A stretch of DNA of 64,000 nt from Flavobacterium saccharophilum (lineage in GTDB: Bacteria > Bacteroidota > Bacteroidia > Flavobacteriales > Flavobacteriaceae): assembly GCF_900142735.1 (NCBI RefSeq), contig NZ_FRBY01000006.1, positions 248,001 to 312,000 of the forward strand, given 5' to 3'. Below the pieces are notes generated by a model. That model was given only the letters and a program-made list of their open reading frames with translations, ran no database searches and was not told where the DNA came from. Positions 4,831 to 53,585 of this stretch are shown piece by piece. How positions within the stretch are numbered: position 1 is the stretch's first letter; each line of letters starts with the position of its first letter. Both the position numbers and the translations under genes were made by a program.

Positions 4831-4930
4831 CTTTTGAAAAAGAGTCCCTAGCCCAGACAGAAGCGGCATCCTTTTGGGGCGGGGTTCGCCCCAAAAGATA
4901 TAGCGGATGGCTGGAAACAGCTCCTGAAAA
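4831..4930 (+). ncRNA. Structured RNA-like repeat, copy A (Flavo-1-like candidate)
   Basis: First of three copies in this window. The core reads CTAGCCCAGACAGAAGCGG, then ATC(C), a 10-bp hairpin TTTTGGGGCG/CGCCCCAAAA at 4872-4896, then GATATAGCGGATGGCTGG. The closing helix pairs CCAG (4853-4856) with CTGG (4911-4914), then, across an A.G mismatch, CA (4858-4859) with TG (4908-4909). The corresponding pairs differ but stay complementary in the copies at 8.4 and 45.8 kb. It lies in the 271-base gap between a hydrolase gene and the VIT gene. It resembles the Bacteroidota Flavo-1 RNA motif from memory; not verified. Confidence 0.6.
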
Positions 4931-8422: not shown

Positions 8423-8525
8423 CACGTTTCGTCCCGCTATCCGCTATATTCCCAATTAACAAAAACTACGGCTAAAAAGCCTTGTTTTTCTAAATCGGGA
8501 GATACCGCTGCTATCGGGGCTAGAT
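8423..8525 (-). ncRNA. Structured RNA-like repeat, copy B (reverse strand)
   Basis: On the minus strand the core reads CTAGCCCCGATAGCAGCGG, then TATC, a long imperfect hairpin containing AAAAAC/GTTTTTG and GGCT/AGCC, then AATATAGCGGATAGCGGG. The closing helix pairs + strand CCCG (8433-8436) with CGGG (8515-8518) and TA (8438-8439) with TA (8512-8513). The helix is thus conserved while the bases differ from copies A and C. Its variable central hairpin is longer than in the other copies. It occupies most of the 358-base gene-free gap 8308-8665. Confidence 0.55.
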
Positions 8526-16283: not shown

Positions 16284-17619
16284 TTAGCATTTTTTTAATT
16301 GATGGAACCATTTCACCAATATCTCCAGCTCCTATTGTTACAATTATTGGCGCATCACTGGCTTTGATTTCCGCTAATAAATCATTTTTTGCAACAATTT
16401 TCTTATTCGAACTTGTCATTTTACCTAGCAACCAATCCGATGTAATCCCTTCCATCGGTAATTCACGTGCCGGGTAAATATCCATTAAAAACACTTCATC
16501 AAATTGTGATAAACTTTCTGCAAATCCATCAGCAAAATCTCTCGTTCTGCTAAATAAATGCGGTTGAAAAATCGCCAAAACTTTACGTCCTGGATACAAT
16601 TCGCTAACAGCCTGATGTACAGCATTTATTTCTGTTGGATGATGTGCATAATCATCTATATAAACTAAATTTTCAGATTTAATCTGATAAGAAAAACGTC
16701 TTCTGATTCCGTTGAATGAAGCAATGGCTTTTGCAATTAAGTCGGTCGGGGTGCCAAAAGTCTTAGCCATTGCAATAGCCATTAATCCATTCATTAAATT
16801 GTGTTTTCCTGGTAATCCAAAATGCAAGTCTTTCATAATTTCTGATGGCGTTTGCACATCAAAAACATAACTTCCATTTTCAATACGAACATTGAACGCC
16901 TTATATACAGCATCTTCATTTATAGCACATTGCACTCCTTCAAGAGGCAATTCTTTGGTTATAAACAACTTGCTTTTATCTTCAACTTTCGAAGCAAATT
17001 CTACAAACGAAGCCTCAATAGCATCGCTGGTTCCGTAAATATCTAAATGATCAGCATCCATAGAAGTGATACAGGCAATATTTGGATGCAAATGCAAAAA
17101 TGAACGGTCAAATTCATCTGCCTCTACAACCGTTACCGTTTTTCCAGTTCCAATTAAATTAGAATTGTAATTCTCAACTATTCCACCCACAAATGCGGTA
17201 ACATCTGCTCCACTCTCATATAAAATATGTCCTAGTATACTTGAGGTTGTTGTTTTTCCGTGTGTACCGGCAACTGCAAAACTAAAAGTGTCTTTCGTAA
17301 TAATTCCTAAAACTTCAGCACGCTTTTTAATTTCGTAATTTCTTTCGATAAAGTAATTCCACTCTGAATGTGATTTTGGAACAGCAGGCGTAAAAATCAC
17401 CAATGTATTCTCTACAAAATAATCACTTGGAATCAAATTAATATTATCTTCAAAATGAATATCAATTCCACTTTCAATCAATTCATTAGTTAACATCGAA
17501 GGCGTTTTATCGTAACCTGAAACCTGTTTCCCGATATATTTAAAATAACGAGCCAGAGCACTCATTCCGATGCCTCCAATACCAATAAAATAAACGTTCT
17601 GTATTTGATTTAAATTCAT
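16270..17619 (-). CDS. murC: UDP-N-acetylmuramate--L-alanine ligase
   Basis: Cytoplasmic ligase of 449 residues that adds L-Ala to UDP-MurNAc using ATP. The N-terminal Rossmann motif FIGIGGIGMSALA is at residues 11-23. The Mur-ligase P-loop GTHGKTTT is at 118-125, and DEFDRSFLHLHP and DDYAHHPTEI, typical of MurC, follow. Length is normal. It is separated from murG by 154 bases in which I see no terminator, and it overlaps ftsQ. Confidence 0.97.
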   Translation of the reverse strand: MNLNQIQNVYFIGIGGIGMSALARYFKYIGKQVSGYDKTPSMLTNELIESGIDIHFEDNINLIPSDYFVENTLVIFTPAVPKSHSEWNYFIERNYEIKKRAEVLGIITKDTFSFAVAGTHGKTTTSSILGHILYESGADVTAFVGGIVENYNSNLIGTGKTVTVVEADEFDRSFLHLHPNIACITSMDADHLDIYGTSDAIEASFVEFASKVEDKSKLFITKELPLEGVQCAINEDAVYKAFNVRIENGSYVFDVQTPSEIMKDLHFGLPGKHNLMNGLMAIAMAKTFGTPTDLIAKAIASFNGIRRRFSYQIKSENLVYIDDYAHHPTEINAVHQAVSELYPGRKVLAIFQPHLFSRTRDFADGFAESLSQFDEVFLMDIYPARELPMEGITSDWLLGKMTSSNKKIVAKNDLLAEIKASDAPIIVTIGAGDIGEMVPSIKKMLNENI

Positions 17620-45836: not shown

Positions 45837-45940
45837 TCTTTTGAAAATGAGTCCCCTAGCCCGGATGGAAGCGGTATCCTTTTTCTGGCTCCTTTAGCCA
45901 GGAAAAGATATAGCGGACAGCCGGAAACAGCTCCTGAAAA
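45837..45940 (+). ncRNA. Structured RNA-like repeat, copy C (Flavo-1-like candidate)
   Basis: Near-identical in its flanks to copy A (CTTTTGAAAA...GGAAACAGCTCCTGAAAA). The closing helix pairs CCGG (45861-45864) with CCGG (45921-45924) and TG (45866-45867) with CA (45918-45919), in both cases with bases different from copy A but still paired. The inner hairpin is TTTTTCTGGCT/AGCCAGGAAAA around CCTTT. It fills the gap between the PhyH-like gene and the convergent PAP2 gene, and its end touches the PAP2 stop codon. Confidence 0.6.

Positions 45941-53333: not shown

Positions 53334-53406
<73 letters not shown>

Positions 53407-53512: not shown

Positions 53513-53585
<73 letters not shown>

Follow-up and report, generated by a model that had tools for sequence, protein, structure and literature searches.

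Flavo-1 (RF01705; Weinberg et al. 2010, PMC2864571), the element found three times in the window (the whole stretch of 64,000 nucleotides of Flavobacterium saccharophilum DNA analysed here), is a structured repeat scattered along the chromosome, at intergenic positions that are mostly stable. On balance, and with some reservation, we favour the reading that Flavo-1 is not an ordinary sRNA gene but an interspersed structured repeat, the copies of which exchange their hairpins. Sequence comparison shows that paired changes preserve the fold at an orthologous place, that the tolerance of mismatches is strand-specific, and that the inner stem-loop changes as a block between orthologs, to a far greater extent than the sequence around it. 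What is new is that a known family appears to behave as an interspersed repeat with block replacement of the inner hairpin and strand-specific pairing.

The identity of the three elements was determined by a covariance-model search, in which all of them matched RF01705 over model positions 1–76 of 76. Copy 1 (4846..4921, plus strand) scored 74.2 bits (E 1.7e-14), copy 2 (8426..8525, minus strand) 49.7 bits (E 9.6e-8) and copy 3 (45854..45931, plus strand) 76.8 bits (E 3.4e-15), against a gathering score of 42 bits. The name Flavo-1, which the original prediction had put forward as a resemblance, was therefore right for three of three copies, and the intervals given there were slightly longer than the Rfam spans. 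The shared segments CTAGCCC, AGCGG and ATATAGCGGA described there are present in every copy, the variable pair is indeed A4855-T4912, C8516-G8435 and G45863-C45922 in copies 1, 2 and 3, respectively, and the neighbouring pairs CA/TG, TA/TA and TG/CA were all found beyond the A.G mismatch. The inner hairpins differ among the three, as had been stated. Copies 1 and 3 have the outer context that we call type A, and copy 2 has type B. The minimum-energy folds of copies 2 and 3 are the Flavo-1 fold, and that of copy 1 kept the apical hairpin but not the outer Flavo-1 pairs. By RNA folding alone, the copies were only moderately better than shuffled sequences (z -1.6, -3.2 and -1.9 for copies 1, 2 and 3). 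Their predicted location in intergenic gaps near gene ends was borne out: copy 1 follows a same-strand gene at a distance of 49 nt, copy 2 lies 118 nt beyond the end of a 1079-aa gene on the opposite strand, and copy 3 lies between two convergent gene ends, 21 and 9 nt away. The window also holds two tRNA genes of identical sequence on the minus strand (53334-53406 and 53513-53585).

Read along its strand, the element shows YTAG, followed by a short outer stem with the variable pair, the A.G mismatch and two more pairs. Inward of these lie two purine-rich internal loops split by two pairs, and then an apical hairpin that varies in both length and sequence. In bare Rfam coordinates, the A.G mismatch was found at the fixed offset in 147 of 170 hits (80 of 95 from the own genome and 67 of 75 from the sister genome, G177); by eye, the hits without it are, with one exception, copies of context C or otherwise weak ones, for which this offset does not apply. 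The second inner pair in 163 parsed copies was AT in 96, GC in 48, AA in 10, TA in 8 and GG in 1. By eye, many copies carry roughly GNA-RY-GGA on both arms, which gives a near two-fold symmetry, and a class with all-purine arms (GGGAGGGAAAA) is a frequent exception. Among 91 parsed copies of the own genome, a script assigned 53 to outer context A, 25 to B and 13 to C, the last being the form in which CCC/GGG is replaced by an outer GGG/CCC. In contexts A and B the stem is preceded mostly by CTAG or TTAG, as judged by eye. Identical inner types were found under all three contexts; the inner part of copy 2 (context B), for example, shares 97% identity with that of a type C copy at another site of the own genome. 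The parsing patterns fix several outer letters and overlook some copies, such as an element visible by eye at locus L328. Some Flavo-1 arms also contain a smaller repeat, TTACTTCACTT...AGTGAACTTCGTTTG, with a length of about 46 bases (G000:C5:604757, C6:241073, C7:431334 and C7:240396; G177:C3:366906). Over 635 kb of own loci, one of its end motifs was found 3 times and the other 4 times, in each case within Flavo-1 or next to it.

With 150 of 1527 candidates scored, the own genome of 5.2 Mb gave 95 matches with E at most 0.001, of which 87 were above the cut-off. A match was present in 40 of 60 related genomes, own included, and in 34 of the 36 other members of the genus, with 1 to at least 65 per genome. 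With up to 150 candidates scored, the counts were 77 for G177, 108 for G126 and 81 for G036, so that the copy number within the genus runs from 0 to 108. Collections of phages and plasmids gave no match in either with window copy 3 as the query, and one exact Flavo-1 pattern led to one viral contig. A metagenome-assembled contig labelled Bifidobacterium breve (L206) has the pattern too, and is probably mislabelled or from a contaminated bin. Type C copies were noted at some contig ends (L037, L053 and L079), on the same strand as a 5S rRNA gene and about 500–580 bases beyond it; several other contig ends have type A copies nearby.

Conservation of the fold was analysed in the gap between folE and cysS, names that were assigned from the gene sequences. 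Flavo-1 was present in 27 of 30 loci, in the same orientation and 22–50 nt before cysS; this is not a prevalence, because the loci are the top-scoring ones from 249 genomes for a query that already contained the element. Some outer letters are fixed in the pattern by which the rows were picked, but it lost no element at this place, as the other three loci have none by eye. In the 27 loci (26 distinct rows), 97.9% of 436 cells were paired and 12 of 17 pairs had double-sided changes; none of 500 shuffles was as high in either measure. The covariation score was 0.365, compared with 0.130 (sd 0.014) in the shuffles, none of which reached it, and partners slid out of register scored at most 0.087. 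The weakest of the five measures was the number of further pair types (20 versus 17.0; 14 of 500 shuffles as high). One column contained all four Watson-Crick pairs (GC 12, AU 8, UA 5 and CG 1 of 26 rows). From the paired changes in 12 of 17 pairs and the 97.9% pairing, we conclude that the fold is selected, and part of the paired changes may come from block replacement. The original prediction had argued for selection on base-paired structure from three paralogs in one genome, which is weak evidence: between orthologs the inner hairpin differs as a unit, so that a single event can alter both arms. The orthologous folE-cysS loci now support that claim, with covariation above background in this larger alignment. 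In a side observation made by eye, TTAATCG-type repeats fill the folE-cysS spacer where Flavo-1 is missing (L297, L299, L305 and G177:C20 near 16640-16700).

Replacement of the inner hairpin was measured against G177, which is 91% identical to the window over 7 kb. A counterpart at the corresponding place was found for 64 of the 95 own copies, and these represent only 61 distinct G177 copies, because five own copies flanking rRNA operons map to two. Of the remainder, 10 had flanks but no G177 copy, and 21 were without a flank in hand. Parsing left out 3 of the 64 shared pairs, 4 of the 95 own copies and 3 of the 75 located G177 copies; 2 of the 77 G177 copies were without a locus. In the 61 parsed pairs, inner identity was below 80% in 23, 80–90% in 14 and at least 90% in 24. 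At the 20 clean places, where both 88-base flanks were at least 80% identical, the inner stem-loop was below 80% in 10 (9 of 20 in a slightly different parallel count). Among control windows, the same was true of only 13 of the 436 that lie within 250 bases (Fisher p 2e-9) and of 56 of all 2182 (Fisher p 4e-11); both values are inflated by sequence relatedness and by the overlap of the control windows. Two of the window copies lie at clean places with an inner part below 80%. The inner stem-loop of copy 1 (4859..4908, plus strand) is 71.7% identical to that of its G177 ortholog, which has another inner hairpin, between flanks of 87% and 91%. That of copy 2, of the long GATTTAGAAAAACAAGG type (8439..8512, minus strand), is 45% identical between flanks of 88% and 95%. 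Copy 3 is unchanged in the sister genome (45867..45918, plus strand, 100%).

In the alignments, the replaced block is flanked by the halves of the outer stem, usually still locus-specific, and in some pairs the replacement extends into that stem. Misalignment was rejected as the source of the swaps after alignments spanning both flanks were checked. For 7 of 9 swapped clean pairs, a cassette identical at about 94% or more was present at another copy in either genome; for the other 2, no close donor was found among the cassettes read. The left-arm and right-arm classes agreed in 257 of 263 distinct cassettes. Across species, Flavo-1 was found by pattern in 22 of 30 asnS, 15 of 30 lysS and 22 of 30 thrS loci, fractions that are not prevalences since these loci were selected like the folE-cysS ones with a query that held the element. 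The hairpins differ between genomes at the cysS, asnS, lysS and thrS places, and an all-against-all comparison of flanks gave differing hairpins at shared places too, among the matches listed. No clean insertion site with a target duplication was resolved among the 10 own copies with flanks but no G177 copy, because the spacers of the two genomes differed too much.

The mismatches that remain in the stems point to the strand that is selected. In double-stranded DNA without strand-specific selection, G.T and A.C mismatches are expected to be equally frequent. On the Flavo-1 strand of 146 distinct apical hairpins, taken at 14–48 bases, 43 G.T and 4 A.C were counted (32 and 3 in an overlapping earlier set); the p value of 3e-9 is overstated, because the sequences are related. 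The excess of G.T therefore indicates that selection sees one strand, as RNA or as single-stranded DNA, and it fits either alike. Along the chromosome, 83 copies were in lagging and 60 in leading orientation, which is not significant (p 0.065). This count was made by hand on the 150 listed rows of 189 matches in two single-contig genomes, with replichores judged from the GC skew at 20 points per genome and a boundary segment of G126 (7 copies) omitted. Since the orientation is mixed, a mutation bias of the replication strands is an unlikely cause of the G.T excess.

Rfam gives the type of RF01705 as 'Gene; sRNA', and it is possible, if unlikely, that Flavo-1 is a functional RNA in place (3'UTR, leader or small RNA) and that the swaps are incidental. 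The one-strand excess of G.T over A.C and the fold conserved at the folE-cysS place would both be expected of such an RNA, and the gene surroundings lend it some further weight. Counted once per orthologous group, 45 sites were in tandem gaps on the same strand, 29 in tandem gaps on the opposite strand (p 0.08 for these two), 24 in convergent and 18 in divergent gaps, while the gaps of at least 150 bases in the same loci were 238 tandem, 79 divergent and 61 convergent. The element was in sense orientation in 86 of 86 pattern-matched cysS, asnS, lysS and thrS loci, one of which had an extra antisense match. In the own genome, five synthetase genes (thrS, lysS, cysS, asnS and metG; L031, L040, L049, L083 and L086) have a same-strand Flavo-1 27–238 nt upstream. 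They make up 5 of 63 representative same-strand downstream proteins, a raw count with names taken from the gene sequences and with no thrS row among the family rows shown; no synthetase was among the 25 Pfam families listed for the control set. The downstream protein sets omit 1 of 64 same-strand and 5 of 65 opposite-strand (short) representatives. In RNA-seq of F. psychrophilum, several 5' transcribed regions coincide with Flavo-1 hits, but according to the same source, in the part available to us, the hits are sense or antisense indiscriminately and many lie outside transcribed regions (PMC9723704). The promoter box TAnnTTTG (described in the same paper, PMC9723704) also speaks to some degree against this alternative, as far as this one type of box goes. 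Within 40 nt upstream of Flavo-1 it occurred 5 times over 120 sites, against a background of 3.9 drawn mostly from coding DNA, and the upstream sense bins of 40 nt (5, 2, 4, 3 and 0) had no peak. It peaked instead 80–120 nt downstream on the same strand, with 14 occurrences where no other bin exceeded 8; for TAnnTTTGC the peak was 9, and the other bins had 3 or fewer. In the asnS and lysS loci printed, the box sits by eye between Flavo-1 and the start codon, so that the element is outside the leader. The cysS loci, where TATATTTA, related to the promoter box, is just upstream of Flavo-1, may be an exception. From the positions of the box, many copies thus resemble neither genes with such a promoter nor leader elements, which agrees with the available account in PMC9723704 of sense and antisense hits often outside transcripts. 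A 5' leader riboregulator is not what was found, with the box after the element at asnS and lysS and a mixed gene arrangement, and for the same position of the box, 5' leader control of aminoacyl-tRNA synthetase genes is kept as a lead only. The copy number of 0 to 108 per genome likewise counts against a functional RNA in place.

If Flavo-1 were a REP-like element, moved by a Y1/RAYT (IS200/IS605-like) transposase with the folded single strand as its substrate, this would account for the high intergenic copy number and the single-strand specificity; the YTAG that directly precedes the imperfect hairpin is also reminiscent of the GTAG tag in REPs. We hold this to be very unlikely, because Flavo-1 adjoins none of the 22 Y1 transposase genes that were read, over 19 genomes, together with their flanks (a single flank for L446), and three genomes with at least 64 matches each (G004, G029 and G030) had no PF01797 match; for the Y1 genes read, RAYT was rejected as the mobilizer. 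The nearest Flavo-1 was about 1 kb from a Y1 gene (L444), and a pattern match about 1.8 kb from another (L452) was without an Rfam call. Nearly all 22 genes adjoin other hairpins by eye, and Y1 genes flanked by their own hairpin families, e.g., GCGCGGATTTGCAATCCGTGCCC and CCTGCGGTTGAAACCGCAGG, were noted at L105:3100-3360 and L441-L460. It is equally improbable that template switching within the hairpin during replication rewrites both arms with no exchange between copies. This process is known to create and repair hairpins (PMC8794818, in the part available), and several apical parts are perfect palindromes, some of them found elsewhere in the own loci. Nevertheless, it would be expected to remove the A.G mismatch as well, yet 147 of 170 Rfam hits retain this; it imports no block types present at other copies, and it offers no obvious reason for the strand bias of G.T over A.C. 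Slightly less remote, though still quite doubtful, is a dedicated hairpin-exchange system, in which fixed outer stems would dock inner cassettes moved or copied by a putative single-strand enzyme, with about 100 places and three contexts served by a shared pool.

In the favoured reading, an interspersed repeat with hairpins exchanged between copies, one strand would fold into a long stem broken by the A.G mismatch and the two purine-rich internal loops. Blocks may be copied mostly from other copies non-reciprocally, i.e., by ectopic gene conversion, and selection would retain only arms that can pair. The folded strand, RNA or single-stranded DNA, would be bound via its purine loops by a putative protein, and transposition by a putative enzyme, probably other than a Y1/RAYT transposase, may have given rise to the first copies. 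Neither an enzyme nor a binding protein was found for Flavo-1. Several points count against exchange: the homology at the borders can be about 10 bases, which is little for ordinary recombination; 2 of 9 swapped clean pairs are without a close donor among the cassettes read; and many species keep the element at the same place, which has the look of a local function that a purely selfish repeat would not require. If exchange is correct, what is annotated as an RNA family would have to be regarded as an interspersed repeat, with its covariation coming partly from block exchange between copies. Covariation among paralogs should then be taken with caution, as it is not proof of an sRNA gene. The comparison of the own genome with G177, in which about half of the clean places differ, provides a concrete case of rapid hairpin replacement at fixed places.

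Among known systems, the BOX elements of Streptococcus pneumoniae are modular structured intergenic repeats, and their modularity lies in the number of boxB units. This number varies in BOX, whereas in Flavo-1 the inner hairpin is replaced. The bcr1 repeat has a conserved fold and traits of mobile elements, its sequence is not known to be related to Flavo-1, and hairpin exchange is not known for it. Like Flavo-1, bcr1 of the Bacillus cereus group is a chromosomal interspersed repeat (PMC2267715, in the part available). REP/BIME sequences with RAYT resemble Flavo-1 as short intergenic imperfect palindromes present in tens of copies and folding as a single strand, but according to the available parts of PMC3733652 and PMC6006769 they are 20–40 bases long with a GTAG or CGTC tag, compared with about 76–120 bases and YTAG in Flavo-1. 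Flavo-1 also differs in that no cognate transposase was found (22 Y1 genes) and in its stable places with hairpin replacement. In the portions at hand of the open-access literature naming Flavo-1 or RF01705, a scope that leaves subscription papers and supplements outside, no description of hairpin exchange was found. The window copies share with Flavo-1 of RF01705 the fold, the conserved letters and a Bacteroidetes host; to the table row for the motif in PMC2864571, the present analysis adds the hairpin exchange, the three outer contexts, the strand-biased mismatches and the fixed orthologous places.
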